Positions 8,101-28,978 of a stretch of DNA of 35,195 bases are shown piece after piece; within the stretch, counting starts at the first letter, position 1; each line of letters opens with the position of its first letter. Position numbers and translations under genes: made by a program. Source of the DNA: Verrucomicrobiota bacterium (GTDB taxonomy: Bacteria > Verrucomicrobiota > Kiritimatiellia > UBA8416); assembly GCA_018645275.1 (NCBI GenBank), contig JABGOW010000511.1, positions 5,175 to 40,369 of the forward strand, written 5' to 3'. Under the pieces are notes generated by a model. It ran no database searches. It was not told where the DNA came from and saw only the letters and a list, made by a program, of their open reading frames with translations.

Positions 8101-9074
8101 AATGTCTTTTTAAACGTGTGTTGATTTTTCCAGCCGTCTTTGCCGCGAAGCTGGACCGTGACGCTAGAGGGCATTTCTGAAGCCTGCTCCTGAGTAAACG
8201 CAAGGCGGAGCGTGGCTGCGGGTTCGACCTCAAAGTCGCGAGTGACGGTTATCCCGCTCTTGAACTCCACCCGGGTTTTTGCCCCGGCAGCCAGCGCATA
8301 ACTGTCGGAGTCGATGGACACCGTCGTGCTGCGTTTTTCAAGACCGGAAAGGGAGTAGTGGCCTTGTGCATCTGTCGTTGCCTGCCGGGAACGGCTTGTT
8401 TTTACAATAATGCCCGGTGCCGGCTTTTTATCCGTTGTGTGTATGATGCCTTCAATGGTGCATCCCAGTTCGGCAAGCAGTTCGAGATAGGCGAAGTCAT
8501 CTTGGATCTCAACATCCTGGCGCTTTGGCGCGTAGCGCTTATCATCAATGAAGCAGCGGTAGGTGCCCGGGCTGAGGGATGCAAAGGCAAAAGCGCCCTC
8601 TGCATCGGTTTTTGTGCGGGCCGCTTCCGAATAGTGCTTGCAGCTGGTTTTGCGAAGACGCATCTCGGCAACTACACTCACCCCGACAAGCGGCTTATTA
8701 GCCTCGCGCACGATTCCGGTGCATTCGCCAAGCAGCGAGAGCTTGAGCGTCTTCAGGTCGGTATCTTCATCAATGTGTGTGAATCCATCCCTGAGTCGGC
8801 CGTCAGCGTCCCGGACCAGGATGGTGTAATCCTTCTTGCCACTGGGCAGCGACAGTGAAAAGTCCCCATCATCGCCTGTTTGGGTTGTGGCTTCGAAAGG
8901 CGGTGTTGTCCCCGTTTTGTCGGCATGCAGATGCGTGGCGGAAATGACAAGTCCCACAAGTGGTTTCTCTGTCTCTGCATCGACGGTCCTTCCCGTAATC
9001 GTGATGTCAGCCCGTGCGGATAGCGTGTGCAGCGCGATGAGGGTTGCGAGAAGGTGTAGAATACGAGTGCGCAT
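5112..9074 (-). CDS. Large secreted protein of tandem carboxypeptidase-regulatory-like (beta-sandwich) repeats
   Basis: Signal peptide MRTRILHLLATLIALHTLSARA; more than 10 repeats of type 'GxVxDxxGxPLxGVxVxxxxxxxxxTDxxGxFxxxGLxxGxYxL'; AAGGAGA RBS before ATG 9074. Confidence 0.9.
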   Translation of the reverse strand: MRTRILHLLATLIALHTLSARADITITGRTVDAETEKPLVGLVISATHLHADKTGTTPPFEATTQTGDDGDFSLSLPSGKKDYTILVRDADGRLRDGFTHIDEDTDLKTLKLSLLGECTGIVREANKPLVGVSVVAEMRLRKTSCKHYSEAARTKTDAEGAFAFASLSPGTYRCFIDDKRYAPKRQDVEIQDDFAYLELLAELGCTIEGIIHTTDKKPAPGIIVKTSRSRQATTDAQGHYSLSGLEKRSTTVSIDSDSYALAAGAKTRVEFKSGITVTRDFEVEPAATLRLAFTQEQASEMPSSVTVQLRGKDGWKNQHTFKKTLADESVTCTGLRSGTYSLHVHGDGVWFNTNGVQLTAGEIVELSLPVKKTVTVNGSVSDSNGDPIAKASVSLYGVAKTKTPTGGSYSSSHQQGKATTDETGAFVITGITPVSAKIEGKHKDYVDTSLELEITNEAEQEIHLVLEDACSITGAIVGTNGAAIAGAKLTVIEEVKSKNSQGRTSTSRRHRERGESDDDGHFSINGLAAGDYVLEIKHDDYCELKQEVTVTSGSNTLSNIELAAGLSISGMVQESKGELSDGIRVTANGPKNASGTERVWKREEVDADGSFEIGGLSEGRYTINIQDGRDTVSTLSDIEAGTDDIFVSLGAQHSVTGRVVDAEGNPLSGVGVGTARQREGSARFGSSGARQSDIETDSNGMFSVTVREGSPYRITASLSPYLPGNSTVDLSTPASFDNAVIEMTLKEGATIRGTVVDQASGAPVAGIEVRPGTGGWFGGMGMMQGNRDTVETTDSTGAFKIEGVAKGVVELMACSNTDGQRQVLTQKRVLVEADELDGVKIELPTTGRIEGVFITADGDPVSSASVMLQNTSNPRGMQNTQVDEDGSFLFAGVPAGTYQVYATPMNDDADSTDYTSIMAKMVATQAIVKEGETTTLSLRQKSGGSNETSRAGIITVNGTPQPGGKIVFQAAPKTEDRSNQMAMAMRMMGGVKQADIDEKGAFSITGLEPGEYTYRITDPTKPEEPQSGWMAPALTGTFTVEEGDQALTLAIDGKTLSGVVTAGGTPKEGIRMHLTSRTAKGWQEYTQGRNTVTDDEGKYALKCLQPGSYKLRTQTAEFSPSVAFIEVADRNVTHDITLSDGFTLRGQITNPEGNTLPQAAIVVLSPDTEETMGFGIADAAGDYTIQSPLPEGACLLLAFKDGYDIKTQRITLTEDTTWSPKLEPGGEVIISVKDASGNPVTGKYIEVHTKEGARVERCHNEAWAMVGYWSAACNTALNSAGSTTIKGLAPGTYAASLKGEAARTTFSVLALETTEVIIQQ

Positions 9075-9116
9075 GGGGTCTCCTTGTTCGTTAGACCCCA
9101 TCCGAAAAGGGTCTTT

Positions 9117-10167: not shown

Positions 10168-10426
10168 CTGAAGGAACCGCAGGAACACCAACCAATACAA
10201 GTATGTCCTGTTTCTGGGAAGTGAAACTGACGAATGCCTGTCCGCTCGAGAGGCAAACGGCCTCCTTTTCCTGAAGAATATCCCACCGGCAGACGTCTGC
10301 CTCATGAAGAACGGGTGTTGGGGGCGGCATAGCGCGCTGCTGACCCTTTGTGTTTGCCGTCCCCACCTCGTTCTTCATTTTTCTTTCTTTTTTTGGAAGA
10401 ATGCCATCGTGGCAGACGTCTACAGG

Positions 10427-11017
10427 ATGCAGACGGACTATGAACGAGGGTCAGACGTGGTCGGAACTCAAAAGCCTGGACAACGTAAAGCGCGTGATCG
10501 GACAGCAACCATGGAGAAGATTGTGTCCCAACACGAAACAGCACTACTACGCTATGCTGCGCGTTTGGTAAACAGCCCAACCGCCGCTCAGGATGTCGTT
10601 CAGAATGTGTTCATCAAGCTCTTCAAGAACTGGGATGGGCATTCGCAACCCTCAGACAAACTCAAGAGTTGGCTCTTCCGCGTCACCCACAATGAGGCCG
10701 TCGATCTCATCCGCCGCGAATCCCGACTGAAGGTACTGCACGAGAAACACGCCGAGGAACGGCGGGAGGACACCTGTCCGGATGGACACAACTGCCCCCC
10801 CAGTCACGAAGAGAGGAAAGCCACCGTTTTAACACATCTGAAGCGACTCCATCCGCGTGAACAGCAGATTGTCCTTCTGCGACTGGAACAGGGACTCTCC
10901 TATCGCGACATTTCTGAGATTACCGGCCGAAGCGAAGGCAACGTTGGCAACATTCTACACCACGCCATTCGCAAACTATCAACAGTCCTACAACAGGAGG
11001 GGGTGATTCAGTCATGA
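10427..11017 (+). CDS. ECF-type sigma-70 family RNA polymerase sigma factor (start uncertain: 10427 or 10511)
   Basis: VSQHETALLRYAARLVNSPTAAQDVVQNVFIKLFKNW (region 2), SWLFRVTHNEAVDLIRRE, LHPREQQIVLLRLEQGLSYRDISEITGRSEGNVGNILHHAIRKL (region 4). Confidence 0.92.
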   Translation: MQTDYERGSDVVGTQKPGQRKARDRTATMEKIVSQHETALLRYAARLVNSPTAAQDVVQNVFIKLFKNWDGHSQPSDKLKSWLFRVTHNEAVDLIRRESRLKVLHEKHAEERREDTCPDGHNCPPSHEERKATVLTHLKRLHPREQQIVLLRLEQGLSYRDISEITGRSEGNVGNILHHAIRKLSTVLQQEGVIQS

Positions 11018-14000
11018 ATTGTGAGCAAATCCATCCTCTACTCACGCAGTATCTTCTCGCCGAGCTGGACCCGAAAACAGCAGACTCGATCAAAGCACAT
11101 CTCGAGACCTGCCCGGTCTGCCAGGCTGAACTTGCGCTCCTCGAGCCAACGTTGGCCCTCCTGTCAGACGCCCTGGCAGAACCCGCAACGGCACAGAAGC
11201 GCCTGGAGTCCACACGGCGAAAGCGGGTTCTACATCCCAGCCGCCTGGGGCGGACATTCCACTGGGTTGGAACGTCTCACCCCAGAATGGCCATGGCTGC
11301 CGGCGTCATGTTCGTTGCCGGGTTCTTGTGGTTTTTGGTAACGCCTGCAGCAATGCACAGCGCCAAGAAAGCGCGGGCATCGCGAGTGCGCTTTGGCCTC
11401 GATCTTGAGATGCCGCCTCCACAACGGGGTGTCACCGTCACGGTTGTTGAGCCCGAACCCATGGAAGCGCTTGAGGATATCGAAGAGCCGCTTGCTGAGA
11501 GCCCCGCCCCCAAGCTCCTCCCAGACCCCCTAATGCCCCCGCATCCCATAGAGGTGGACTTCACGCCCGCAGCAACGCTGCCGGCTCTGGAGGTGGCAGC
11601 TCCTTCGCAGGATGTTAGCGTGCAGCCCGCCGAATTTGACAGCGTCGCCATGGTGAAGAGCCCGGTTGTCATGAAGGGCATCTACGCTGGCCGGACACCG
11701 GCTGGCCGCGCCGAGGCGTTGAGGCGCTTTGGCGGGAGCGGTGGTGGCTCTACGGGGGGCGATGGCGACGACCTGGGCATCGTAGTCGCAGACGTGAGCC
11801 GGGAGCGACCCTCAGAGCTCATTAATCTTGCGTTTGCCGACAGTGACGCTGATAGCCTTCCAGACGGTTGGGAGACGGCAGATCGCAGCGGTGCCTCGGT
11901 ACCAGCCAAGGAGACGGTGCCTATCCTGGGCGATACTCCTATCGCGGGCCGGCTGTTTAGGAAGACCACAAAGACGTCCGGCACCCCCGGAAGCCTGAGA
12001 TTTAAAGCGCTCCCAAAACCCGATGACAATAACAGGGATCAGCCGACTGATTGGTTTCTGGGTGATGCAGCCGAGGTTGCGGACTCCGAGACCGTTGAGA
12101 GCCGCTCAGAACTCAATGGCACCGTTGTTCCGAGCTCTGGCAGCACGGAGACTCGAGCGGCCTCATCTCAAGAACGGAGAAGAAGCTTCTACTATTCCCT
12201 GGTCTCCGAATCCAAACCGACCGGGGGCAAGGTCGCTTCTCCCCCTCGTCCGAGGCCTGCCACTCGGGGCGTGGCGGCTACTGCTAAGCCTGCTGATACC
12301 CTTGCGACACTCGAGGCCAACGTCTCTGCTGCAGTGGACGACCTTGTTGAGCATAACCGTCTTCACAGCATCAGCCGCGTTGAGGCGCGAGGGTCAATGA
12401 AAGGGCGATATGCAGAAGCACTGGGGGAGCGGCGAAATCAACTCACAACAGAACTGATGTTACTTGAGGCATCACATCCAGCGTTGCAGGGCGCCAAAGC
12501 CGAAGTGATTCGCGAGGTGGGACAACTGACACAGGCGACAGGTGAAGTCAGCGCAGATCCAGAGCTGAAAGAGAAATCTGAGAGTGAAGAACTCCTGGCA
12601 TGTCAAGATCAGCCTGTGGAGCTTGCAAAGCTGAAGAGGGAGGAGAAGAGTCTGGCTGGCAATCTGCAACCGGATCACCTAGAGCTGAGGGACGTCCGCA
12701 GCAAGATTTCTGGCATTGAAAAGAAACTGTCCGTTGCGGCTGAAGTAGAAATGCAGAAGCTCAAGGGTCGACACAAGGCGCTAACGATACAGCTAGATGC
12801 AATTGAGACTGCTGAATACAAGTGGCAGGTAAAGAGGCAGCTGGCAGAGGCACGCGAGGCAGAGCACAAACGTCTCGACCAGCGCCTTAAGACGGCCGAG
12901 GAGAAACTTGAGCTTGCCCAAGAGACTGAGGAGAAGCGGCTGCAAGAGGAGCGCGAGAGTGAAGCGCGCGAGGACCCTGCTCGGTTCAAGGCATTTGGGG
13001 TGAATCCGTTCGTGGCGGTCGCCGACCAGGCGTTCTCGACGTTCGCGATTGATGTGGACACCGCGGCCTACACACTGGGACGGAACTACCTGAAACAGGG
13101 TTATCTGCCGCCGGCGGAATCCGTGCGTACCGAGGAATATGTGAACTTCTTTGACTATGCCTACAAAGCCCCCGCTCGCGACACATTCACGGTCTATACC
13201 GACGTCGCGCCTTCCACGTTTGGGCGTGGGCAGCATCTGCTCAAGATTGGCGTGAAGGGACGTCGGTTGGGGCGCGAAGAACAACGTCAGGCGTCGCTGA
13301 CATTCCTGATTGATACGTCGGGCTCCATGAACCAGACCGATCGTCTCGGATTGGTTCAGAAGTCGCTCGGGTTGCTCGTCAACGAAATGAATGCTGATGA
13401 CCGCGTTGCCATTGTTCAGTACGGCTCGCATGCACGACTTGTTCTCGAACACACGCCGATCTCAGACAAGGAAGCCATCCTGAAGGCGATCAACAGCTTG
13501 CAGTGTGGCGGCTCGACCAACCTCGAAGAGGGCATGCACCGCGCATACGCGCTAGCCGCAGCCAACTTTGTTCCAAAGGGAGAGAACCGCGTGCTGCTGC
13601 TCTCCGATGGTGTTGCCAACCTCGGGAGCGGGGCGGCAGAGGATATTCTGGAAAAGGTTGATGCATTCCGCCGCCAGGGCATTACCTGTTCCGTCTTCGG
13701 GTTCGGCATGGGCACCTATGACGACGTCATGCTCGAGACACTGGCCAACAAGGGCGATGGGGCTTACGCCTTTATCGACTCTGAAAGCGAAGCTCGACGC
13801 GTCTTCATTGACGACCTATCGGCGACGCTCAATACGATCGCAGCAGACGTAAAGATCCAGGTGGAATACAACCCGGCCTTCGTGGCGCGCTATCGGCAGC
13901 TTGGGTACGAGAACCGTCAGCTCAGGAAAGAGGACTTCCGCAACGACGCTGTCGATGCCGGTGAAGTTGGATCCGGACAGTCGGTGACTGCACTCTACGA

Positions 14001-14364
14001 ACTGGAGCTGGCCTCCGCGATGAAGGCTCCGCGGCGTCATTCTGGCGTTGCAACCGATGTGATTGCGACGGTGCGGGTGCGCTACCGCCGCATCGACACG
14101 GGAGCGGTCGAGGAGATCGAGCACCGCGTGCGCCAGCAAAATGTGCTCCCACGCTTCGCGGATGCCTCCCCCCGTTTCAAACTGGCCGCCGGCGTGGCGG
14201 AGTTCTCAGAGATTCTGCGTGGCAGTCCATTTGCAAAGGGGTCCACCCCAGAAGACGTTGCCAACATGATCCGTCCAGCAGCATTAGAGCTGACGCTGGA
14301 TCATCACGTTCAGGAATTTCTACGACTTGTTCAGGGCGCCTCAGGCATGAGCCGGGGACGGTGA
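11014..14364 (+). CDS. Fusion protein: N-terminal zf-HC2 anti-sigma domain, TM helix, TSP3-like motif, coiled coil, C-terminal YfbK-like VWA domain
   Basis: CEQIHPLLTQYLLAELDPKTADSIKAHLETCPVCQAEL (zf-HC2); MAMAAGVMFVAGFLWFLVTP (TM); DSDADSLPDGWE; STFAIDVDTAAYTLGRNYLKQGYLPPAESVRTEEYVNFF; FLIDTSGSM (MIDAS). ATGA overlap with sigma gene, AGGAGG upstream. Confidence 0.9.
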   Translation: MNCEQIHPLLTQYLLAELDPKTADSIKAHLETCPVCQAELALLEPTLALLSDALAEPATAQKRLESTRRKRVLHPSRLGRTFHWVGTSHPRMAMAAGVMFVAGFLWFLVTPAAMHSAKKARASRVRFGLDLEMPPPQRGVTVTVVEPEPMEALEDIEEPLAESPAPKLLPDPLMPPHPIEVDFTPAATLPALEVAAPSQDVSVQPAEFDSVAMVKSPVVMKGIYAGRTPAGRAEALRRFGGSGGGSTGGDGDDLGIVVADVSRERPSELINLAFADSDADSLPDGWETADRSGASVPAKETVPILGDTPIAGRLFRKTTKTSGTPGSLRFKALPKPDDNNRDQPTDWFLGDAAEVADSETVESRSELNGTVVPSSGSTETRAASSQERRRSFYYSLVSESKPTGGKVASPPRPRPATRGVAATAKPADTLATLEANVSAAVDDLVEHNRLHSISRVEARGSMKGRYAEALGERRNQLTTELMLLEASHPALQGAKAEVIREVGQLTQATGEVSADPELKEKSESEELLACQDQPVELAKLKREEKSLAGNLQPDHLELRDVRSKISGIEKKLSVAAEVEMQKLKGRHKALTIQLDAIETAEYKWQVKRQLAEAREAEHKRLDQRLKTAEEKLELAQETEEKRLQEERESEAREDPARFKAFGVNPFVAVADQAFSTFAIDVDTAAYTLGRNYLKQGYLPPAESVRTEEYVNFFDYAYKAPARDTFTVYTDVAPSTFGRGQHLLKIGVKGRRLGREEQRQASLTFLIDTSGSMNQTDRLGLVQKSLGLLVNEMNADDRVAIVQYGSHARLVLEHTPISDKEAILKAINSLQCGGSTNLEEGMHRAYALAAANFVPKGENRVLLLSDGVANLGSGAAEDILEKVDAFRRQGITCSVFGFGMGTYDDVMLETLANKGDGAYAFIDSESEARRVFIDDLSATLNTIAADVKIQVEYNPAFVARYRQLGYENRQLRKEDFRNDAVDAGEVGSGQSVTALYELELASAMKAPRRHSGVATDVIATVRVRYRRIDTGAVEEIEHRVRQQNVLPRFADASPRFKLAAGVAEFSEILRGSPFAKGSTPEDVANMIRPAALELTLDHHVQEFLRLVQGASGMSRGR

Positions 14365-14580: not shown

Positions 14581-14692
14581 TAGCTACTGTGGTGGAACCT
14601 GACCACTACATTTTTCTTACATCCCTTTTACGGGTATCTGACCAGAGGAGTCTTCGGATGTGGTGCAATCAAACAAAACAACAAGGGGGATC

Positions 14693-17600
14693 ATGATGAA
14701 AAAGTGGTTTGCGATGGTGTGGGTGTCTTTGGTGACAGGGATGACGGCTTTCGGGGCATCGTCGGAGGTGACCGTTTCGGACCTCGTCCTGAGGGGGGAG
14801 ATTGAAGGGGAGAACATCGTCTTCGAGCTGTCGCTCGACGTGAGCGCAGCGGGCAAGGATTGCTCGCTTCCCCTCGTGGTTGGGGATGTTGCGTACTTGG
14901 ATGGCAAGTTACCGAAAGGCGCCGAGATCGTTCGAAGCGGGGACCGGTATCTACTGAAGATGGGGCGCAGTGGGTGGGGTCGCTCCAGCAAGAAGTCGGT
15001 GCGGTTCAAGTTTGCGAGCCGGGCCGTTGAAAAAGGCGAATGGCGAAACACGAGCTTCTCCATTCCAGCCGCGAGCATTCGCCGCATCTCTGTGGTCTGT
15101 GACCGCGATGATCTCGAAGTCCGTTTTCCTGGCGCCCTCAACATTGAACGCCAGAAGCTGGCGGATTCCAAGAGCGAGGTCACGGCCTACCTCGGCATCA
15201 CGGACCGTTTTCAAGTTCAATGGAAACCCGAGGTCAAGAAGCTCGATTCCGAACTCGTGGTTTCGTGCGAGGCGAACGCAATTGCCACCGCCAGCGTCGG
15301 CGCGATGCGTCTCGACACCATCTTCACCTACCGCGTGATCCAGGGCGCACTCAAAGAGTTGGAGCTGGACCTCCCCGACGTGAGTGTCACGCAGGTTACG
15401 GGAGATGACATTCAGGGGTGGCGCATTGATCGAACAGATGCGGACCACCCACGGTTGATTGTGTCGCTCAGTCGCGCCAAGGAGGATCTGTATCGCCTCC
15501 GCGTCGAAAGCGAAATGGCTCTCCCGAAATTCCCATCGAGCTCCACGCTTCCCGTACTCGCTCCGCGCCACGTCATCCGTAATAGCGGGTTTCTCCAAAT
15601 CGGTACTGACAGCGCGATCAAGCTCCAGGTTGCGAAAGCCGCGGGCCTCACCCAAGTTGATCTGGCGGCTTTCCCAACGGTGACGCTCAGCGGCGATGCC
15701 TCCTCGCGCCCAACACCTGCGCGAAGTCTCTATGCCTACCAGTATGCCGGAACCCCCTACACGCTTGATATCACGGCTGATGATATTGTGACCACCTTTA
15801 CGGTGGACAGCCAGTTGGTGCTCACACTTGCAGACAACGAATTGTCGCTCGATGCCTCTGTCGAGATTGACGTGAAGGATGCCCCGGCGCGGGAGATTCG
15901 GATTGAAACAGATGCCGACGCCGAATGGACCGTCACCAGCATCACGGGGCAGCACGTTTCCGAGGCGGACGCAGATGTGCGGGACGAAGACGGCAAACGC
16001 ATCATCTATGTCCCTTTTCGGCAGGCGGTACATGGGGCCGCCCTCGTGACCATTCGCATGGAGCGCTCTCTTAAGCGCGATTCTGTGATGTTCGCCGCTC
16101 CCAAGTTCACCGTTCTGGGAGCCAAGTCGGAACGTGGCTACCTTGTGATGGCGGCCGAGAAGGGCATTCGGCTGAAAGCAAAGGCCTCCACCGCACTGCA
16201 AGAGGTGCATACGGGATCAGCACCCATGCGAATTGCGGGCGCTCAACAAGCCTTCCGATTCAAGACGGGCGAGTGGTCGCTCGGCATGACGATCGAACGC
16301 ACGCTCGCATCCATTGATACGGAGGTGTTTCACCTCGTCTCGCTGGGAGAAGGCGTGATGTACTGCAGCGCGGCGATTACCTACCACATCAGCGGTGCAC
16401 CGGTTCAGGAGTTTCGCGTGCGCGTGCCGGAGTCCATCGAAACGGTGGAATTCACAGGCGCCGATATCGAAGGGTGGCAACGCGAAGGCGAGATCTGCAT
16501 GGTCCGCCTGCAAGCTAAGGTCATGGGGGACTACACGCTGCTGGTGACCTATGACAAGCAATTCGACTACGAGGGCGCCGTCATTGAGGCGGGCGGTATT
16601 GAAACACTCGACACCGACAGCGAGGTCGGATACATCGCAACAGCAAGTTCGGCCAGTCTCGAGCTCACCGAATCGGAGACACTTCCGGGGGCGATTATTC
16701 GAATCGACCGCGACGAGATCCCCAGCGCCTATGCCTCCCCGGTAAATGACCCCATCATCAAGTCCTACAAGTACGTCAAGAATCCGCACACGGTCTCAAT
16801 GCGTATTGATCCTTTCGATACAGAACCCCTATTGGGTCAGATTGCCGACTACGTCAAGCTTGAGACGCTTCTCAGCAAGAAGGGCGGCGCCGTCACAACG
16901 GGAACCTACTATATCAAGAACGCCTCCCGGCAGTACCTTGTCGTGAATGTCCCGAAAGGCGTTGATCTGTGGACCATCAAGGTCGTCGATGAGAATGGCA
17001 AGAAGACGGATGTTCTCTCTCAGGAGAAGGACGACGCAGTTCTGATTCCAGTCAACCGCCCGCAGAATCCCAATACGGCAATTGCGATTGAGCTGGTCTA
17101 CGCACAATCGCTTGGTGCCCTGGGGTTCTGGCGAAGCGGCGTTCTCGGGGTGCGGCTGGATGCGCCGACTTTGAGCGATACGCATGCAACGTTTGCGAGC
17201 TGGCAGGTGACCGTTCCTGATGAGATGTCGATTGCAACCACAGGTGGAAACATGACGCCCGAGGCGAGCGTTCGCCGCCCCGGCATCAGCGGCGCCCTGA
17301 AGAAGGTATGGCGCCTTGGCCGTGCCATGCGCTCACGCCGCTACACCATCCGCCGTGCGCTGTCGGGTGGCTGCGGAGGCGGTCGCTCTCAGGAGTTCAT
17401 CCGGTCGGTCAATCTTGCCGACGAGCGGCCCTTGAGCATACGCCTCTCCGTGGTGCCCACCGCGATGGGGGCGGCAAGCTCTGCACGGCTCATGCTGGGT
17501 GGCGTGATTCTCGGTCTCGCCTTGCTATGCGGGAGCGTAGTGACGCGCAGGCCACGACTGGTTATTGCGTTGGGGATCACCGCCGTCGTGCTTGGTGCTG

Positions 17601-20600
17601 CTCAGTGTGCGGCCGGGCGCTCCGTCGTGGCCGTCTGCGTCTGGATTCTGATCGCATTTCTGTTCGCACGCTATGGAATTGGATTTGCTTGGAAACTGGT
17701 TGCCCTTGCAGGTAGCGGCCTCATGCGGGTGCTGCGGCAAGTATGGAGACTGATCCGTTTCGTGGCCACGGCAAGCTATGCCGTTTTGGGGGCGGGCTGG
17801 GTCGCGTGGCGCGAGCACCGTGCACGCGTGTACCAGCGGAAGTTGGAACTGACGCGGGCCTCGCAGTCGGCCTATGACATTGCGCCGTTCGAATCGACTC
17901 CCCCGCCAAAGCCGCCACCCTCGCCAGAGAGCCCGGAAAGCGGTTTTGCGCTCATGCAGTGGCTGGCTGTGGTTGCTGCGGTGAGCATGTTGGCCCTGAG
18001 CGGCGTGATGGCGAGTGCCTCTGAACAAGTCACGAAACAACAGGAGCCTCCCGTTCCGGCACCAAGCGTTCCCGTGATGGATCTCATCACCATCAATATG
18101 ATCGGTCCGACTTCGGATCGTGACGCCGAGCAGAGCGCCGCAGTCAACATGACGCTGGAATTCGAAACGGAGGGATCCACTTCTTTTGTGGTGGTTCCCA
18201 GCGCGTGCGTTCTGATGGAGTACGACCTGAACTCGCGCCATGCAGCCATCGAGAGCAGCGACAAAGGATATGTGCTGAACGTCAAGAAGTCCGGCGAGTA
18301 CCGCATCGTGTTGAACTTCAGGACGCCTGTAACGGAACAGGAAGGGAGATGGATCGCCTCGGTCCCGCTGCTTGAGAACATGCGCAATCGCCTGACGCTG
18401 GAGCTCCCCGAGAATGGGATGGACATACGGGCGGATCTGGCTGTGCTCTTCCGCAGCGACGAAGATGCCTCCAAGACCACTGCTGAAGCCGTCTTTGGTC
18501 CGGCAAACGCGGCAACGCTGTCATGGCGGCCACGTGTCCGCAAAACCATGTTGGAAGCGGTCGTCTTCTTCAGCGAGGTGAAGACGTTGGCTTCACTGCT
18601 CTCCGGAGTCGTCGATCTCACTCACGTGGTGCGGTACCAGATTGCCCAAGGCGAGATGAAGGAGCTCAAGATACTCATGCCTGCCGGTATGAGCGTAACG
18701 TCGGTCAAGGCGCCGTTGTTGGCCACATGGAGTTTCGACCCCGAAACCCGGTTGCTCGAAGCCGTTCTAAGACAAGCCGTCACAGGCGATTTCACGCTAA
18801 ACCTACAGACTCAGATGCCGAGCGAGGGCCTCCCCTACGATGCCGTTCTGGGTGCGTTGGATATCCAGGGCAGCGCGCGGCAGCGGGGAGCGATGGCCAT
18901 CTCTGCACCCGACGCCGTTCAGATACGGGTGGAGGGTTCAGAAACCACAAGCCCAATGAACATCGAGGATTTCTCTTCCAAGGCAATCAGGGCTGCCTGG
19001 GGTGGCTGCAAGCGCCGGCCTCTCGCCATACGTCGCGCGTTCCGCTACAACGAGCCCGGCAGCGTCGCGATCGCCATTCATGCTGAACGCGTCTTTCCTG
19101 AAATCCGCGTTCGGGAGCTCGGGTCGCTCTCCGTCGCCGACGAACGTATCGTACTCTCGACGAAGATCGCCCTCGCGATTGCCAAGTCCGGCATCTTCTC
19201 CGTGCGCCTCGGCATTCCCGCTGACTTTGATGTCGAGACGCTGTCCGGCAAAGATGTAAGCCATTGGGATGAGATAGCCCCCGGCGATGTCGGTACGGAA
19301 GACATCGGCGGTGGACGCGGGGTTACGGTGCATTTCAATCGCCATGTCAACGACGCCACAGAGATCAATCTTGTGGTTGCCCGGATGGAGAAGGGCATTG
19401 AGTCGCAAATCTCCGTGCCGCGCGTGTATGTGGCAGAAGCGCGCAAGCATGCCGGTCGGCTGACGGTTGCTGGCGAGCGAGGGGTTCGCATGATGGTGGA
19501 GAGCCACCGCGGCGTAGACATCAAAAAGGCCAGCGAAGCGGGCATCACGCAGTCCGGCGTCCTCGTTTTTGATATTCTCAGGCCCACCTGGGCGATCGTA
19601 CTCAAGACCGAAATCATGGAACCGGTCATAAAGCCGGAGGTTCTGCAGTGGGTTGACCTGACCGAGGGCATGCTCAAGTGCCAGGCCTTTGTGAACTATG
19701 AGATTGAGAATGCCGGTGTGAAGACCTTCCGACTGCAGAGCCCCCTACCCCATGTCGCGCTTGCCGTCACCGGCAACAACATCGCCCGCGTACATGAGAT
19801 TGATCCCGAGCAGGGCGTCTGGCAGGTGGAGCTGCACGGCAAGGTCGAGAACCAGTTCGCGATGACGGTTGGATTCCAGGTTCCGTTCAACCATGAGGAG
19901 CGGCGTGTCAGCGTACGCCCCCTCAAGACGGTCGATACCGAGGGACAGCGCGGCTACGTGGTGGTGACTTGCGGCGGTCGCGTGCAAGTGGTACCGGATG
20001 AAGGACTTGAAGGACTCAAAGGAGAGGACCCGCGGAGCATTCCATCCAGCTTTGGGGCGGGAGACCTTTCTGATGCCATTCTCTGCTACCGAACCGTTCG
20101 CTCGGACTACGAACTGCCGCTATCGGTCGTGCGTCACGAATCCGCCAGCGTCCTGCCGGCCAGTATCAGCCAGGTTCGGATGACATCGGTGGTTTCAGGA
20201 AACCGCAAGCTCCTGACACGGCTCGCTATTCAGCTTGCCGTAGGCGATCTGCGCTTCCTGCGGATGTCGCTGCCGGACCCGAAGGACGCCCTCTGGACCG
20301 TGCTCGTCAATGGCCGCGAAGTCTCCACGTCGCGCGATGGTGAGCGCTACTGCATCCCGCTCGAAGAGCAAGAGGGCTCCGAAGTCTCCTCCGTCGAAGT
20401 CGTCTACGCCGGGTCCATCGGGGGGGGCGGCTTGCTGCGCGAACACAAAGTTGTTGCTCCGTCTTTCGAGGGGTTGCCCCTTAACGATATTGAGTGGTCG
20501 TTCTTCGTCCTCCCGCAGGCACAGTACTACGGCTTCGGGGGCACCATGGACCTCAAGCCGGACGAAGCCATTGCAAAGGTCTTCGATACCGACTCCTACA

Positions 20601-21226
20601 TGGACTACAACAGGAAGCAGCGCGAAGCGACATGGAAGAAGGCTCGCGATGTGCTGAGCGCGGGAGAACAGATGGCCAAGGTTGGCCGGCAGAAGGAGGC
20701 GCGCAACGCATTCCAGCAGGCGTTGAGCTACTCCGCAGGAAAGAAGGATCTGAGCGAAGATGCGCGGGTTCAGCTGCGCAACTTGACCAAGCAGCAATTC
20801 AAGATGGGGCTTGTCAACCGCCGTGGTGCCGTGCGCTTCCGCAACAACATCATCGACGAGCAGGAGATCCAGCAGATGGAGGGGTTCCAGGGCGGCAACT
20901 TCACCCAGGAATATGCCGCAAGCGTCGAACAGCAACTCTCCTCCAGTGACAACGATGCACTGGACGTGGTCGCCGAGAAGATGCTCGATCAGCAGGCCGC
21001 TGCAGCCGGTGTCGTGAAAGCTATCCGCATTGTCATGCCGGAACACGGCAGAGAGCTACGCTTTGCGCGAGCCCTACAGGTTGATCCCGCCGGTGAACTG
21101 AGCGTCTCATTCAAGGTCAGTCGTGGCACGCCACTTCGGGGTCTTGGAGACCTCTGGTCGGCGCTCTTCGTCTTCCTCGCTGCATTTGGCCTGACCGCGC
21201 TCGTCGCACGCCCGAAAACGGCATAA
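14693..21226 (+). CDS. Giant (~2177 aa) secreted/membrane protein of two duplicated halves separated by a multi-TM region
   Basis: Signal peptide MKKWFAMVWVSLVTGMTAFGAS; TM cluster near 17473-18030; C-terminal TM (LWSALFVFLAAFGLTALVARP); long uninterrupted ORF. Confidence 0.9.
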   Translation: MMKKWFAMVWVSLVTGMTAFGASSEVTVSDLVLRGEIEGENIVFELSLDVSAAGKDCSLPLVVGDVAYLDGKLPKGAEIVRSGDRYLLKMGRSGWGRSSKKSVRFKFASRAVEKGEWRNTSFSIPAASIRRISVVCDRDDLEVRFPGALNIERQKLADSKSEVTAYLGITDRFQVQWKPEVKKLDSELVVSCEANAIATASVGAMRLDTIFTYRVIQGALKELELDLPDVSVTQVTGDDIQGWRIDRTDADHPRLIVSLSRAKEDLYRLRVESEMALPKFPSSSTLPVLAPRHVIRNSGFLQIGTDSAIKLQVAKAAGLTQVDLAAFPTVTLSGDASSRPTPARSLYAYQYAGTPYTLDITADDIVTTFTVDSQLVLTLADNELSLDASVEIDVKDAPAREIRIETDADAEWTVTSITGQHVSEADADVRDEDGKRIIYVPFRQAVHGAALVTIRMERSLKRDSVMFAAPKFTVLGAKSERGYLVMAAEKGIRLKAKASTALQEVHTGSAPMRIAGAQQAFRFKTGEWSLGMTIERTLASIDTEVFHLVSLGEGVMYCSAAITYHISGAPVQEFRVRVPESIETVEFTGADIEGWQREGEICMVRLQAKVMGDYTLLVTYDKQFDYEGAVIEAGGIETLDTDSEVGYIATASSASLELTESETLPGAIIRIDRDEIPSAYASPVNDPIIKSYKYVKNPHTVSMRIDPFDTEPLLGQIADYVKLETLLSKKGGAVTTGTYYIKNASRQYLVVNVPKGVDLWTIKVVDENGKKTDVLSQEKDDAVLIPVNRPQNPNTAIAIELVYAQSLGALGFWRSGVLGVRLDAPTLSDTHATFASWQVTVPDEMSIATTGGNMTPEASVRRPGISGALKKVWRLGRAMRSRRYTIRRALSGGCGGGRSQEFIRSVNLADERPLSIRLSVVPTAMGAASSARLMLGGVILGLALLCGSVVTRRPRLVIALGITAVVLGAAQCAAGRSVVAVCVWILIAFLFARYGIGFAWKLVALAGSGLMRVLRQVWRLIRFVATASYAVLGAGWVAWREHRARVYQRKLELTRASQSAYDIAPFESTPPPKPPPSPESPESGFALMQWLAVVAAVSMLALSGVMASASEQVTKQQEPPVPAPSVPVMDLITINMIGPTSDRDAEQSAAVNMTLEFETEGSTSFVVVPSACVLMEYDLNSRHAAIESSDKGYVLNVKKSGEYRIVLNFRTPVTEQEGRWIASVPLLENMRNRLTLELPENGMDIRADLAVLFRSDEDASKTTAEAVFGPANAATLSWRPRVRKTMLEAVVFFSEVKTLASLLSGVVDLTHVVRYQIAQGEMKELKILMPAGMSVTSVKAPLLATWSFDPETRLLEAVLRQAVTGDFTLNLQTQMPSEGLPYDAVLGALDIQGSARQRGAMAISAPDAVQIRVEGSETTSPMNIEDFSSKAIRAAWGGCKRRPLAIRRAFRYNEPGSVAIAIHAERVFPEIRVRELGSLSVADERIVLSTKIALAIAKSGIFSVRLGIPADFDVETLSGKDVSHWDEIAPGDVGTEDIGGGRGVTVHFNRHVNDATEINLVVARMEKGIESQISVPRVYVAEARKHAGRLTVAGERGVRMMVESHRGVDIKKASEAGITQSGVLVFDILRPTWAIVLKTEIMEPVIKPEVLQWVDLTEGMLKCQAFVNYEIENAGVKTFRLQSPLPHVALAVTGNNIARVHEIDPEQGVWQVELHGKVENQFAMTVGFQVPFNHEERRVSVRPLKTVDTEGQRGYVVVTCGGRVQVVPDEGLEGLKGEDPRSIPSSFGAGDLSDAILCYRTVRSDYELPLSVVRHESASVLPASISQVRMTSVVSGNRKLLTRLAIQLAVGDLRFLRMSLPDPKDALWTVLVNGREVSTSRDGERYCIPLEEQEGSEVSSVEVVYAGSIGGGGLLREHKVVAPSFEGLPLNDIEWSFFVLPQAQYYGFGGTMDLKPDEAIAKVFDTDSYMDYNRKQREATWKKARDVLSAGEQMAKVGRQKEARNAFQQALSYSAGKKDLSEDARVQLRNLTKQQFKMGLVNRRGAVRFRNNIIDEQEIQQMEGFQGGNFTQEYAASVEQQLSSSDNDALDVVAEKMLDQQAAAAGVVKAIRIVMPEHGRELRFARALQVDPAGELSVSFKVSRGTPLRGLGDLWSALFVFLAAFGLTALVARPKTA

Positions 21227-21567: not shown

Positions 21568-22449
21568 CTACCCGTGCACCTTGTGCCGCTGGCGATATTC
21601 CGTTGCGGGTATACCCATGAGCCGGGAGAAACGCCGAGAGAAGTAGAGTGGATCGTCAAACCGAAGCTGATCTGCGATCTCAGCAATCGTGAAGTCCGTC
21701 TCCACGAGCAGGCGACACGCTTCTCGAATCCGTAGACTCATCACGTAGCGCGAGGGGGGCGCATGGACATACCGTGCCCAATAGCGACGAAATGTGGAAG
21801 GAGACAAGCCATAGTCCCGGGCAAGCGCATCAAAATCATGGTGCTCAAGGTAGTGCGTCCGCACACGCTCACGGATCTGACGGATGATAGACTCGTCTCG
21901 CCCCAGTGGCGGACGGGACTCCCCCAGGCGACTCTCAACCACCAATAGCTCACACGCGCGATCAATGCGGTCGACTCGGCCATGCTCATGAGGGCTTTGA
22001 AGCAGACTCATCAGGTGATCCACCTGTTCCCTCATAGGAATTTCGCGTCGGACGTTCCAAAGCGGCTTGCGGAGCAATGCCAGATTTCGCTTGCGCAGCT
22101 CATCCAGTTGGTCGGCCGGATAGATAAGCGACAACTCCTCCCAGGTCTCCCACGGACTGCAGGGGCCATAGTCCATCAGCTCGCCCGGCCACTGGATGAA
22201 TACGCACGGAGCCTTAACGGCTATCGACTCTCCTCTGAATCTGAAGATGCCGCCACCAGATAGAATGAATGAGAAATTGAACGTTTCAAAGGTGCGGTGC
22301 TCACGCCGCGTCTTGTGGCCGTTGTACGCGATAGACTCCAACGCCAATCCCGATGGCAACCGACGGGGCAATGGCGCCAAGTGCATAAAAAAATCGTCCA
22401 TATGAAAGATAATATACTCCATTGGCATTAAGTCAATCGCGACGTACAC
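21568..22449 (-). CDS. AraC-family transcriptional regulator (start may be internal, e.g. at MEYIIF or MDDFF)
   Basis: C-terminal double HTH: HDFDALARDYGLSPSTFRRYWARYVHAPPSRYVMSLRIREACRLLVETDFTIAEIADQLRFDDPLYFSRRFSRLMGIPATEYRQRHK. Confidence 0.93.
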   Translation of the reverse strand: MYVAIDLMPMEYIIFHMDDFFMHLAPLPRRLPSGLALESIAYNGHKTRREHRTFETFNFSFILSGGGIFRFRGESIAVKAPCVFIQWPGELMDYGPCSPWETWEELSLIYPADQLDELRKRNLALLRKPLWNVRREIPMREQVDHLMSLLQSPHEHGRVDRIDRACELLVVESRLGESRPPLGRDESIIRQIRERVRTHYLEHHDFDALARDYGLSPSTFRRYWARYVHAPPSRYVMSLRIREACRLLVETDFTIAEIADQLRFDDPLYFSRRFSRLMGIPATEYRQRHKVHG

Positions 22450-22533: not shown

Positions 22534-23268
22534 ATGGCAGCCAAGAAGAAGAGAGCAACGAGCAGCAAGACAAAGTCCGGAAAACGCAAATCGGTGCTGG
22601 TGGTCTGGGGCGGTTGGAGCGGACACACGCCGGAAGCGTGCGCCGACGTGGTTGCGCCCTGGCTCAAATCCAAAGGCTACCGGGTGGTGGTGTCAGACTC
22701 GATGGAGATCTACGCCAACAAGCGCAGAATGCGGAACTTCGATCTGATCGTGCCAATCTGGACCATGGGCGAGATCACGGGCGAACAGTGGGCCGGCCTG
22801 AATGACGCCGTGCTGAACGGCGCAGCCGTGGCGGGATGGCATGGTGGGATGTGCGACGCCTTCCGGAATAACACGGGATACCAATTCATGACCGGCGGTC
22901 AGTGGGTTGACCATCCCGGAGGCATCATCCGCTACAAGGTCAACATCACCGACGACAGAGACCCCATCACGCGAGGCCTCAAGGACTTCTGGATGAAGTC
23001 GGAGCAGTACTATATGCATACCGACCCCGGTAACGACGTGCTGGCGACCACAACCTTCAGCGGACGTCACGGCGACATCCCGTGGATCAAGGGCACGGTC
23101 ATGCCTGTGATCTGGAAACGCAAGTACGGCAAGTCACGCATCTTCTACTCCTCTCTCGGCCATGTCGCCGATGAGTTTACCCAAGTGCCTGAGGTGTTTG
23201 AGATCGTGAAGCGCGGCATTATGTGGGCCATGGGCGAGAAGATTGTTCCTGAATATCAGTCACAGTAG
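22534..23268 (+). CDS. ThuA-like domain protein
   Basis: [41 protein letters not shown]...[16 protein letters not shown]...[33 protein letters not shown]. Confidence 0.9.
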
Positions 23269-23284
23269 ATTGGACATAGAAATA

Positions 23285-24388
23285 ATGAAGAAGACGAATG
23301 TTGCAATTGTCGGGTGCGGGAATATTAGCGGGATCTACTTTGAGAATCTCTGTAAGGTTTTCAAAAACGTCACTGTGAAGGCATGTGCGGATCTGGATCC
23401 TGAACGCACGGCCGCGAAGGTTGAGAAGTATCCTGACGTTCAGGTGGCGACGCTGGAGGCAATTCTGGCCGATCCTGAAATCGAGATCATCGTCAACCTG
23501 ACAACACCGCAGGGACACTTCCCCGTCGCGATGCAAGCCATTGAGGCCGGCAAGAGCGTCCACAACGAGAAGCCAGTCGTGTTGACACGCGACGAGGGCA
23601 AACAGCTTCTCGCAGCAGCAACAACCAAAGGCGTGCGGGTCGGCAGCGCACCTGACACGTTCATGGGGGGCGGCATACAGACTTGCCGAAAACTCATCGA
23701 CGACGGGTGGATCGGCGACCCCATAGGAGCCCAGGCCTTCATGCTCTGCCACGGACACGAGAGCTGGCACCCGGACCCCGAGTTCTACTACAAGGTTGGC
23801 GGCGGTCCTATGTTTGACATGGGCCCCTATTACGTGACGGCGCTGGTGTCGTTACTTGGTCCCGTGAAGCGGGTCTCGGGCTCCACGCGCATCACCTTCC
23901 CACAGCGAACGATTACAAGCGCGAAGAAGTACGGCAATAAAGTTGATGTCGATGTGCCCACACACGTGACTGGTATCATGGATTTTGCCAGCGGCGCCAT
24001 CGGCACAATCACAACCAGCTTTGACGTCTGGGGAAGCGATACGCCGTGCATAGAGATTTTCGGGACCGAGGGCTCCTTGAGCGTGCCCGACCCCAACACC
24101 TTTGGTGGCGTTCCAAGAGTCAAACGTATGGGAGCCGACGCGTGGAGCGACCTGCCCCTGACGCACGGCTATGCTGAGAATGCACGCGGAATTGGCCCCG
24201 CCGACATGGCGGCCGCTATTGAGAATGACCGCCCACATCGTGCCAACGGGGAGCTTGCCTACCATGTGCTCGACATCATGCACGCCGTGCATGATTCATC
24301 TGATCAGGGACAGCGTATCGAATTGGAAAGCACCTGTGAACGCCCTGCACCACTGCCGGCAGGATTGCTGAAGGGCATGTTGGACTAA
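23285..24388 (+). CDS. Gfo/Idh/MocA family oxidoreductase (1)
   Basis: [20 protein letters not shown] Rossmann motif; [17 protein letters not shown]. Confidence 0.93.
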
Positions 24389-24431
24389 ATCTGACCGGCG
24401 GGACGGAGAGCGCGCCGGCCTCCAGGAGATT

Positions 24432-24541
24432 CTGGAGCCGGGACGCCCTCGTCCCGGGAGCAGCGGCCCGGGGGCGGGCCACCTCCATCTCGCCAACAGA
24501 ACTCTCTCTGCAAAACTGGAGCCGGGACGCCCTCGTCCCGG
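24432..24541 (+). repeat. GC-rich dispersed intergenic repeat (copy 2); 26-bp perfect direct repeat CTGGAGCCGGGACGCCCTCGTCCCGG at 24432 and 24516
   Basis: Read directly; homologous to minus-strand 14384-14449. Confidence 0.85.
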
Positions 24542-24620
24542 AGATTGTATACACCCGAGACTTGTGCACGAAACCAGGAAGATTCTAGAATCCTCCTTGA
24601 TCCAAAACAGAAAGCATATC

Positions 24621-25649
24621 ATGCCAACAAGACCAAGAGTAGTCCTGACTGGCTGCGGGGGTATCGCCGAGGCCTGGCTGGGAACGACCCCGGTTCAGAA
24701 GCAAGTCGAGATCGTTGGGCTCGTCGATATCAACGGGGCCGCCGCGGCGGGGAAAGCAGAGCAATTTGAACTGACCAAGGCTGCCACCGGAACCGACTTG
24801 GCCGCAGTGCTAAAGAAGGTGCAGCCAGATGCCGTATTTGATTGCAGCATCCCTGAAGCCCATTGCGAGGTCACGCTGACGGCATTGCGGCATGGGTGCC
24901 ACGTCCTGGGCGAGAAACCTATGGCAGACACCATGCCGAACGCGCGCAAGATGCTACGCGCGGCTGAAAAGGCCAACAAGCTTTACGCCATCATGCAGAA
25001 TCGCCGCTACCAGCCCGAGATTCGCCGTCTACGGCGATTCCTGGATTCCGGTGCCATCGGCAAAGTCACTACGGTACAGAGCAATTTCTTCATCGGTGCC
25101 CACTTCGGAGGCTTCCGTGACGAAATGCAGCATGTGCTGATTCTCGATATGGCAATTCATTCCTTTGATCAGGCCCGCTTGATCACCGGTCAGGACGCCG
25201 AAGCCGTCTACTGTCACGAGTGGAATCCGTCAGGATCGTGGTACAAGCATGGCGCATCGGCGGTGGCCACATTTGAGATGACAGACGAGGTGGTCTACAC
25301 CTATCAAGGAAGCTGGTGCAGCGAAGGCTGCAACACCTCATGGGAATGCGACTGGCATATCATCGGAGAGAAGGGCTCCGTCCACTGGGACGGTGGTGAC
25401 GGCTTCAAATGCGAAGTCGTGCAGGCCAAGACCGGCTTCATTCGCAAACAGCGAGAACGCCAGATTCCGAAGGCCTGCCCAAAACGTTTGACAGGAGGGC
25501 ATGCTGGCTGCATTGCTGAGTTCATCAGATGCCTACGCGATGACACCGCGCCCGAGACGATCTGCAGTGATAATGTCAAGAGCCTGGCAATGGTGCACAG
25601 CGCCGTGCGCAGCGCCAACCAGAAACGACGCATCGCCGTGACACTGTAA
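24621..25649 (+). CDS. Gfo/Idh/MocA family oxidoreductase (2)
   Basis: RVVLTGCGGIAEAWLGT; GCHVLGEKPMADTMPNARKML; MQNRRYQPEIRRLRRFLDSGAIGKV. Confidence 0.93.
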   Translation: MPTRPRVVLTGCGGIAEAWLGTTPVQKQVEIVGLVDINGAAAAGKAEQFELTKAATGTDLAAVLKKVQPDAVFDCSIPEAHCEVTLTALRHGCHVLGEKPMADTMPNARKMLRAAEKANKLYAIMQNRRYQPEIRRLRRFLDSGAIGKVTTVQSNFFIGAHFGGFRDEMQHVLILDMAIHSFDQARLITGQDAEAVYCHEWNPSGSWYKHGASAVATFEMTDEVVYTYQGSWCSEGCNTSWECDWHIIGEKGSVHWDGGDGFKCEVVQAKTGFIRKQRERQIPKACPKRLTGGHAGCIAEFIRCLRDDTAPETICSDNVKSLAMVHSAVRSANQKRRIAVTL

Positions 25650-25671
25650 CGAGCAAGGCAGCAATAACAGC

Positions 25672-25696
25672 AGCCCTGAAAGGGCGAGATATAGGA
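25672..25696 (+). repeat. Solo copy of palindromic element AGCCCTGAAAGGGCGAGATATAGGA
   Basis: Same core as copies at 9183 and 9236. Confidence 0.75.
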
Positions 25697-25716
25697 ATCC
25701 AACCAGGAGACACACC

Positions 25717-26667
25717 ATGCCCAAACCAAAGACACCCCCCATCGACATTCGCATCGGCACGCTCGTGAGCAGTGGCGCCAAAGCGCCCGACTACATCCGC
25801 CAGATTCTACCCCATGGATTCGAGTCATTCAGCCTGACCTTCTGGCAAACCTGCGAAGGCATCAACTTCAGGAAGCTGGCCAAGGAAGTGAATGCCGTCC
25901 TCGAAGGCAGCAATGCGGTTATCTCGTCGCTTGGCATCTTCGGCAATCCTCTGGAGTCGGAAGCAAAAGACAAAGAGACGCTCAAAGGCTGGCGCAAGTG
26001 CATTGACCATGCGCACCTATTCAACTGCGATGTCGTCGCCGGTTTCACTGGTCGCGTGCGGGGAAAACGCATCGACGAGAGCATGAAGACCTTCAAGAAG
26101 GTTTGGACGCCACTGTCCAAGCGCGCCGCCGATAAGGGAGTTCGGATTGCTTTCGAAAACTGCGACATGGGCGGCACCTGGGCCTCCGGTGATTGGAATA
26201 TTGCCCACAACCCCACCGCATGGCAGATGATGTTTGATGCCGTACCCGCCGACAACATGGGTCTGGAATGGGAGCCCTGCCACCAGATGGTGAGCTTGAT
26301 CGACCCGATGCCACAGCTTCGCGAGTGGGCTGGCAAGATTTTCCACGTGCACGGCAAGGACGCCACCGTCCATTGGGATGTGGTTCGCAAGTACGGCGTA
26401 CACTCCTCTATGCATGGTGACATTGCCCTGCCGGGGGCCACGCAATCCGTGCCGCCATTTGCCTACCACCGCACGCCAGGTTACGGCGACAGCAATTGGA
26501 CGGACATCATTTCTGATTTGCGTATGTCCGGATTTCAAGGCAGCATCGACATTGAGGGCTGGCACGATCCCGTCATGAATGGCGACCTTGAAATGACGGG
26601 GCAAGTGCGCGCACTGAACTATCTCAAAAATTGTCGTGGCGATTTCGTCGCGAATCCGAAGATGTAA
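25717..26667 (+). CDS. Sugar phosphate isomerase/epimerase-like TIM-barrel protein (1)
   Basis: Xylose isomerase-like fold signatures: KGVRIAFENCDMGG, MGLEWEPCH, KIFHVHGKDA; AGGAGA RBS. Confidence 0.88.
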   Translation: MPKPKTPPIDIRIGTLVSSGAKAPDYIRQILPHGFESFSLTFWQTCEGINFRKLAKEVNAVLEGSNAVISSLGIFGNPLESEAKDKETLKGWRKCIDHAHLFNCDVVAGFTGRVRGKRIDESMKTFKKVWTPLSKRAADKGVRIAFENCDMGGTWASGDWNIAHNPTAWQMMFDAVPADNMGLEWEPCHQMVSLIDPMPQLREWAGKIFHVHGKDATVHWDVVRKYGVHSSMHGDIALPGATQSVPPFAYHRTPGYGDSNWTDIISDLRMSGFQGSIDIEGWHDPVMNGDLEMTGQVRALNYLKNCRGDFVANPKM

Positions 26668-26678
26668 AGGAGGCTACA

Positions 26679-27833
26679 ATGAATCGAAAACTGCGGATGG
26701 GAATGGTTGGCGGGGGCCCTGGTGCCTTTATTGGTGATGTGCATCGCAAAGCGGCACGCATGGATGGCGGCATCGAGCTGGTGGCAGGCGCGTTTGATAT
26801 CAATCCTCGCAAGAGCAAGGAAATGGGCCGCGAGCAATGCATCGACCCAAAGCGAGCCTACAAGGACTACCAGTCCATGATCGAAGGCGAGCTGAAACTG
26901 CCGGAGGACGAACGGATCGACTTTGTCTCCATCACCGTGCCGAATAACTGGCACTTCCCCATTGCTCGGGACTTCCTGCAGGCTGGCTTCCATGTTATGT
27001 GCGAGAAGCCTATGACCATGACGGTCAAAGAGGCGCTCGAGTTGGAAAAGATCGTCAAGGAATCGAAGAAAGTCTTCGGCCTGATGCACAACTATACGGG
27101 CTATCCCATGGTCAAGCTTGCGCGCGATATGGTGAAGCAAGGCGATCTGGGCAAGATCTACAAGATCGTCGTGCAGTATCCCCAAGGCTGGCTGGTCCGC
27201 CCGATTGAGCGTGAGGGACAGCAGCAGGCCTCGTGGCGCACGGATCCCAAGCAGAGCGGTGCCGCCGGCTGCATGGGCGATATCGGCACCCATGCCGAGA
27301 ATCTCGCAGAGTACATCTCTGGACTGAAGCTGAAAGAGATCTGCGCAGAGCTGACCACCTTCATTAAGGGGCGCAAGCTGGAAGACGATGGCAACTGCCT
27401 CTTGCGATTCAACAAAGGAGCCAAGGGCATTCTGCACGCCAGCCAGATCTCGATCGGCGAGGAGAACAATCTGGCCATCTGGGTCTATGGTGAGAACCGC
27501 AGTTTGGAATGGCACCAGGAGCACCCGAACTATCTCTACGTGAATCAGATTGATGGACCCCAGGAAGTCTGGAAGCGCGGCAACGACTATGTTGCAGCGA
27601 AGAGCGCTGCTGCAGGACGCAACACGCGCTTGCCCTTCGGTCATCCCGAAGCGTTTCTTGAGGCTTTCGCCAACAACTACTGTAACTTTGCTGATACCGT
27701 ACGCGCAAAGATCGAGCGCAAGAAAGCAGACCCGCTGGCGCTCGATTTCCCGAGCGTGAAAGACGGTATTCGCGGCATGGCGTTCATAGACGCAGTTGTC
27801 AGAAGCAAAGGGCGCTGGATCAAACTCAAATAG
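26679..27833 (+). CDS. Gfo/Idh/MocA family oxidoreductase (3)
   Basis: LRMGMVGGGPGAFIGDVHRKAARMDGGIELVAGAFD; GFHVMCEKPMTMTVKEAL; AAGGAGG RBS. Confidence 0.94.
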   Translation: MNRKLRMGMVGGGPGAFIGDVHRKAARMDGGIELVAGAFDINPRKSKEMGREQCIDPKRAYKDYQSMIEGELKLPEDERIDFVSITVPNNWHFPIARDFLQAGFHVMCEKPMTMTVKEALELEKIVKESKKVFGLMHNYTGYPMVKLARDMVKQGDLGKIYKIVVQYPQGWLVRPIEREGQQQASWRTDPKQSGAAGCMGDIGTHAENLAEYISGLKLKEICAELTTFIKGRKLEDDGNCLLRFNKGAKGILHASQISIGEENNLAIWVYGENRSLEWHQEHPNYLYVNQIDGPQEVWKRGNDYVAAKSAAAGRNTRLPFGHPEAFLEAFANNYCNFADTVRAKIERKKADPLALDFPSVKDGIRGMAFIDAVVRSKGRWIKLK

Positions 27834-27845
27834 AGGAGACATACA

Positions 27846-28838: not shown

Positions 28839-28868
28839 TGGCGGTGGCCGCGCCAAGCAGAAAGTCAG

Positions 28869-28903
28869 GGGAGAAGTGGCAGTGCTGCCGCTTCTCCCTT
28901 TTT
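28869..28903 (+). terminator. Rho-independent terminator of the sugar cluster
   Basis: GGGAGAAGTGGC-AGTGCT-GCCGCTTCTCCC followed by TTTTT, 30 nt after the last stop codon. Confidence 0.88.
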
Positions 28904-28978
28904 CTATCCTCGCTGTACGTGTCGTGAGAAAAGCGCTATCGTGACCTCAAATTGATGTCCAGAAAGGGAGTGTCTACC

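Follow-up and report, generated by a model that had tools for sequence, protein, structure and literature searches.

A giant Verrucomicrobiota membrane protein built from two paralogous beta-sandwich repeat arrays and usually linked to an ECF sigma/VWA locus

The 35,195-nucleotide stretch of Verrucomicrobiota DNA analysed here (the window; contig JABGOW010000511.1) encodes a giant protein in which an exported array of about 900 residues occurs twice, with a membrane block and an internal signal-peptide-like segment linking the two copies (Table 1). The original prediction of two paralogous halves in one giant protein was confirmed by self-alignment, by a tree of the halves and by unfused relatives; it is correct, stronger than stated, and reaches well beyond the window. 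The open reading frame runs uninterrupted on the + strand from 14660 to 21226, giving 2188 residues counted from the GTG, and the ATG at 14693, where the protein had been proposed to begin, is its likely start, given the AAGGGGG just upstream and a signal-peptide-like N-terminus (MMKKWFAMVWVSLVTGMTAFGA). The peptides quoted in the prediction are all present at residues 222, 566, 1101, 1323 and 1671 (nucleotides 15323, 16355, 17960, 18626 and 19670), within 1 nt of where they had been placed, and the offset given as about 3.3 kb measures 3303 and 3315 nt for the two pairs.

Table 1. Features of the double-half gene and of the sigma/anti-sigma genes upstream of it (window coordinates)
Feature	Position	Strand	Basis
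ECF-type sigma-70 factor, first gene of triad	10304..11017	+	Pfam, sigma70-ECF
zf-HC2 / vWF_A / VWA / YfbK_C anti-sigma-type gene	11014..14364	+	Pfam
AAGGGGG, likely ribosome binding site for ATG 14693	14683..14689	+	sequence
Double-half membrane protein (likely start)	14693..21226	+	ORF open from GTG 14660
N-terminal signal peptide (predicted)	14693..14758	+	sequence
Half A repeat array	14765..17263	+	profile self-alignment, 10x10 unit comparison, all-beta model
Half A units, approximate bounds	R1 14765-15211, R2 15212-15751, R3 15752-16261, R4 16262-16786, R5 16787-17263	+	
Variable insert, last beta segment, TM block	17264..17704	+	hydropathy; alignment of 34 homologs
Basic then Pro-rich loop, predicted cytosolic	17705..17938	+	charge of equivalent loops
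Internal signal-peptide-like segment, residues 1094-1120	17939..18019	+	hydropathy, homolog motif counts
Half B repeat array	18131..20557	+	profile self-alignment, 10x10 unit comparison, all-beta model
Half B units, approximate bounds	R1 18131-18514, R2 18515-19054, R3 19055-19576, R4 19577-20107, R5 20108-20557	+	
Conserved TPR-like helical insert of half B	20588..21004	+	alignment; helices in model
C-terminal TM anchor	21143..21199	+	hydropathy

For comparison the protein was divided into half A (residues 1-1140) and half B (1141-2188). A self-alignment lacking significant A/B similarity, the outcome named beforehand as contradicting the prediction, was looked for and did not occur: blastp aligned residues 170-865 of half A with residues 1271-1963 of the full-length protein across 716 columns (23.6% identity, E=1.5e-43), hhalign on the single sequences gave a probability of 99.4, and profiles built from 34 relatives each matched at probability 100 and E=2.5e-99 over 792 columns. 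The homology between the halves is significant and collinear, as a whole-half duplication with in-frame fusion predicts. Each half is in turn a tandem of five beta-sandwich units of ~150-180 residues apiece, with within-half repeats at offsets of ~170 and ~340 residues in profile self-comparison (E 3e-20 and 6e-18), and the two quoted motif pairs proved to lie at the core of units 2 and 4, two units that are alike within a half. When both halves were cut into five units and all ten profiles were compared (a 10x10 comparison), every unit of A found its best match in the same-numbered unit of B (A1-B1 1.9e-16, A2-B2 5.2e-32, A3-B3 7.9e-26, A4-B4 7.9e-36, A5-B5 2.1e-27, a range of 1.9e-16 to 7.9e-36); units 2-4 also match each other, and units 1 and 5 are more distant. 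This same-numbered pairing implies that the array predates the duplication of the halves, so that, read from the repeats, the units came before the half and the half before the double. The similarity of A and B could instead reflect two unrelated arrays assembled from one common beta-sandwich repeat, since units 2-4 resemble one another inside each half at E ~1e-9 to 1e-16, yet this is very improbable: the A/B match is collinear across its 792 columns, the matrix diagonal of same-numbered partners already contradicts such an origin, and the insert, last beta segment and TM anchor follow in the same order in both halves.

The fusion extends far beyond this genome. Matches occur in 50 genomes among 144 relatives and in 83 of 390 genomes of the phylum, and A and B stand together in one reading frame at 56 loci besides the window, almost all of them in Verrucomicrobiota. 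Lone A or B matches of the A-B family are nearly all cut by contig ends, and every non-truncated member sampled is a single ORF except L082, where the split is probably a frameshift. In the tree all A halves fall into a clade of their own (97/95), as do all B halves (99/97), a result repeated in a wider set; the fusion is ancient and phylum-wide rather than local. In a genome split into 581 contigs an artefact of assembly or a frameshift might be suspected behind the fusion, but this is next to impossible, being already contradicted by the same stop-free single ORF at about 56 other loci, some of them in near-finished genomes that comprise only one or two contigs (L107, L111). One contig scan yielded only two loci, one of them labelled Planctomycetota (L032); its halves group with those of the Verrucomicrobiota genome L098 at 100, so the label may be wrong and we make no claim of presence in Planctomycetota.

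A divergent sister system carries the same arrays in other arrangements: its gene S, of about 1140-1240 aa, encodes a single half, and behind it comes a fused d1-d2 gene of about 2200-2700 aa whose linker also carries a signal-peptide-like segment. In family f61 (L093, L094) each piece is a gene of its own, one after another: L093 has three one-half genes a, b and c, with b and c 5 bp apart and c starting MKSFAWLLVMAPLGSMAAD, and L094 has a and b before its contig ends. These a, b and c genes group with S (92), d1 (92) and d2 (88). The check proposed with the original prediction, a search for genomes that carry the halves as separate genes, thus found separate exported genes in the sister system and none in the A-B family itself. 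A single duplication shared by A/B and d1/d2 was considered and rejected by an AU test (p=2.6e-4), to be read with the long branches and the unrooted tree in mind, and doubling and joining accordingly seem to have occurred twice. Taken with the unfused genes of the sister system, these separate duplications suggest that split genes represent the general route to fusion and not the literal parents of the gene in the window. A third, shorter layout, in which a gene of ~1165 aa precedes one of ~630 aa, was seen at L074:90-5563, L075:4250-9662 and L076:1-4885; both genes are partially similar to the arrays, and those scanned gave no Pfam matches.

The junction between the halves bears out the suggestion that the second half enters in frame after a TM block: about three helices (residues ~938-1015) are followed by the loop and then by a signal-peptide-like segment. 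In 49 of the 62 fused proteins the first 40 residues of the equivalent loop carry a net positive charge. Directly after the Pro-rich stretch lies the internal segment WLAVVAAVSMLALSGVMASA, followed by SEQ, with a candidate signal peptidase I (SPase I) site between ASA and SEQ; in the window's protein the residues immediately before the segment are acidic rather than basic. That half B opens with such a segment is conserved, with an SPase-like motif behind the hydrophobic segment closest to the start of half B in 48 of the 62 fused proteins versus 14 of 56 C-terminal TMs (p=1.5e-8), so a hydrophobic segment followed by an A-x-A-type site, as expected of an SPase I-cut polyprotein, is present in most. 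Among 34 homologs an [AVST]xA motif is present in the internal segment of 25 and in the C-terminal TM of 3; Ala-rich motifs also end some TM helices, including the TM at ~938 in 15 of the 34. The internal segment fits a signal peptide that would re-export half B and may be cleaved, although the acidic residues before it in the window's protein and the Ala-rich ends of some TM helices speak against this. The end of half B parallels that of half A, with the TPR-like insert preceding the last beta segment and then a single TM; TPR matches also occur in the unfused gene c of L093. Relatives differ in what is inserted next to the membrane behind the first array (L070:3284-11389, L065:5689-12579, L093:5169-9569), the inserts comprising cytochrome c (PF00034, 5.7e-5), DUF1559 pseudopilin-type (5e-7) and STN secretin-type (8.6e-9) domains, as if this position were a sensor slot.

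Upstream of the double-half gene stand two genes that overlap by 4 nt. The product of the first matches Sigma70_r2 (2.9e-16) and Sigma70_r4_2 (4.3e-12) in Pfam as well as sigma70-ECF, and that of the second has a zf-HC2 anti-sigma domain (1.6e-8), one hydrophobic segment and a long ectodomain with vWF_A, VWA (3.2e-19) and YfbK_C (4.4e-44), including a MIDAS-type DTSGS. At 41 of the 56 fused loci a same-strand VWA gene lies no more than 3 kb upstream, accompanied by the sigma gene at 32, and several of the 15 loci lacking it end at a contig edge. DxSxS is found in 40 of 47 VWA genes, and HxxxCxxC within the first 90 residues in 31 of the 43 that are complete at the 5' end. An ECF sigma gene thus adjoins a zf-HC2 gene with a membrane segment, and the pair fits a stress-type ECF sigma factor with a transmembrane anti-sigma factor. 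No other neighbour of the fused gene is widely shared among the loci. Six fused A-B loci (L064-L068, L077) have neither a VWA nor a sigma gene nearby, and the ones included in the tree fall into one clade; the partnership is therefore not obligatory. Elsewhere in the window, 5112-9101 (-) encodes a 1329-aa protein with about 12 carboxypeptidase-regulatory-like repeats, and an AraC regulator (21568-22449, -) adjoins a run at 22534-30073 that probably serves the catabolism of sugar derivatives and consists of ThuA, three GFO/IDH/MocA oxidoreductases and two xylose-isomerase-like TIM barrels.

Family searches with the whole protein against Pfam and NCBIfam returned sub-threshold chance matches alone (DUF6188, 14-3-3, DUF3203), with no match above cut-off to Ribophorin_I, Peptidase_M1_N or DUF4424 and no catalytic family, and profile searches of PDB sequences returned filamin alone (E>2), that is, no solved relative by sequence. 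Structure prediction of each half, which the original prediction had proposed as a check, gave all-beta models for both, with mean pLDDT of 72.8 for half A and 71.4 for half B, from shallow AlphaFold2 runs of six sequences with pTM of 0.35-0.40. With these low-pTM models, and at global TM-scores of 0.1-0.3, the best Foldseek match of half A was Ost1/ribophorin I (E=3.3e-8, probability 1.00), which was also near the top for half B (probability 1.00), and the N-domains of LTA4H and APN matched units of both models (probability 1.00). Such global scores mean that the match concerns the type of unit and not its arrangement. The LTA4H-N-type fold has been described as an auxiliary, possibly substrate-binding module, with DUF4424 (PF14415) reported as its bacterial stand-alone version (PMC3848476). 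Matches to the integrin-alpha fold, suggestive beside a VWA neighbour, were set aside as generic beta-sandwich legs (TM ~0.15).

The sequences show that an exported array of five beta-sandwich units (LTA4H-N/Ost1-like by predicted fold) with a membrane anchor was duplicated whole and that the copies became one gene. Homology, repeats, conservation, linkage and the signal-peptide-like motif are direct observations on the double-half protein; for its topology, cleavage, VWA contact and control of the sigma factor we infer the following. A signal peptide would carry half A across the inner membrane, the TM helices, odd in number (about 3), would end in the cytosol, and after the basic and Pro-rich loop a second signal peptide would export half B, whose TPR-like helices would lead to the last TM anchor; by this topology both arrays would be periplasmic, side by side, in a fixed 1:1 ratio. 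Cleavage by signal peptidase I behind residue 1120 may yield two paired proteins from one polyprotein. The product would be the envelope-facing partner of the ECF sigma and zf-HC2-VWA-YfbK_C anti-sigma pair upstream, its arrays would bind both the VWA ectodomain and some component of the envelope, and the making or breaking of this contact would control release of the sigma factor. As the best-supported reading, at a little short of even confidence, we tentatively take the protein to be a two-ectodomain envelope scaffold or sensor that works with the VWA anti-sigma factor and is possibly split by signal peptidase. A bolder version, that a phylum-wide polyprotein of two paralogous exported receptors or scaffolds is split by signal peptidase at the conserved internal signal peptide into an obligate 1:1 pair controlling a VWA-type anti-sigma factor, joined at least twice (A-B and d1-d2) into the same architecture, seems possible but rather doubtful. 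The main rival to the sensor reading is a single uncleaved structural scaffold, a long periplasmic bead array that would brace the envelope and be no more than a target or passenger of the sigma operon, not a sensor. Ten beta-sandwich units with no catalytic family, fold matches to structural or auxiliary domains (integrin legs, mastigonemes, Ost1) and the orphan clade that has no sigma or VWA genes all suit such a scaffold, but the close and conserved linkage to a zf-HC2 anti-sigma/VWA gene at most loci, the conserved SPase-like motif and the cytochrome c, STN or DUF1559 inserts near the membrane in relatives, which suggest ligand or redox input, speak against it, and we regard it as a real possibility that falls well short of probable.

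This is a large family, widespread in Verrucomicrobiota, that has no Pfam or NCBIfam model and is usually linked to ECF sigma and VWA genes. In it the same exported arrays can be followed in nature from separate through part-fused to fully fused genes, and the idea of a bacterial polyprotein carrying an internal signal peptide can be put to the test. It also points to an envelope-sensing system of VWA and repeated beta-sandwich domains.

Several known systems share individual features with this triad. Ost1/ribophorin I of the eukaryotic oligosaccharyltransferase (PDB 6ezn, 6s7o) has a tandem beta-sandwich ectodomain next to a TM anchor, the architecture predicted for each half by the Foldseek matches, but has two sandwiches against about five per half here, no linked ECF/VWA genes, no sequence match and low global TM-scores. 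The N-domain of M1 aminopeptidases/LTA4H matches the units in predicted fold, whereas here there is no peptidase domain and the array is tandem and membrane-anchored; DUF4424 has the same fold type as that N-domain but no Pfam match here. The upstream pair fits ECF sigma and zf-HC2 transmembrane anti-sigma systems; what sets it apart is the VWA-YfbK_C ectodomain of the anti-sigma factor and the giant double protein encoded after it. In BatA/BatB-BatD operons, VWA proteins are paired with a TM-anchored beta-sandwich protein; beside this triad no MoxR ATPase was found, nor any BatD match. The Bradyrhizobium FbcH cytochrome b/c1 precursor joins two exported products through an internal signal peptide, but its halves are unrelated proteins, whereas here they are paralogous and processing is conjectured. 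Our searches of the open literature turned up no account of the family, and we regard it as undescribed and widespread, assembled from parts of known kinds: an ECF/anti-sigma locus, beta-sandwich repeats and gene fusion.
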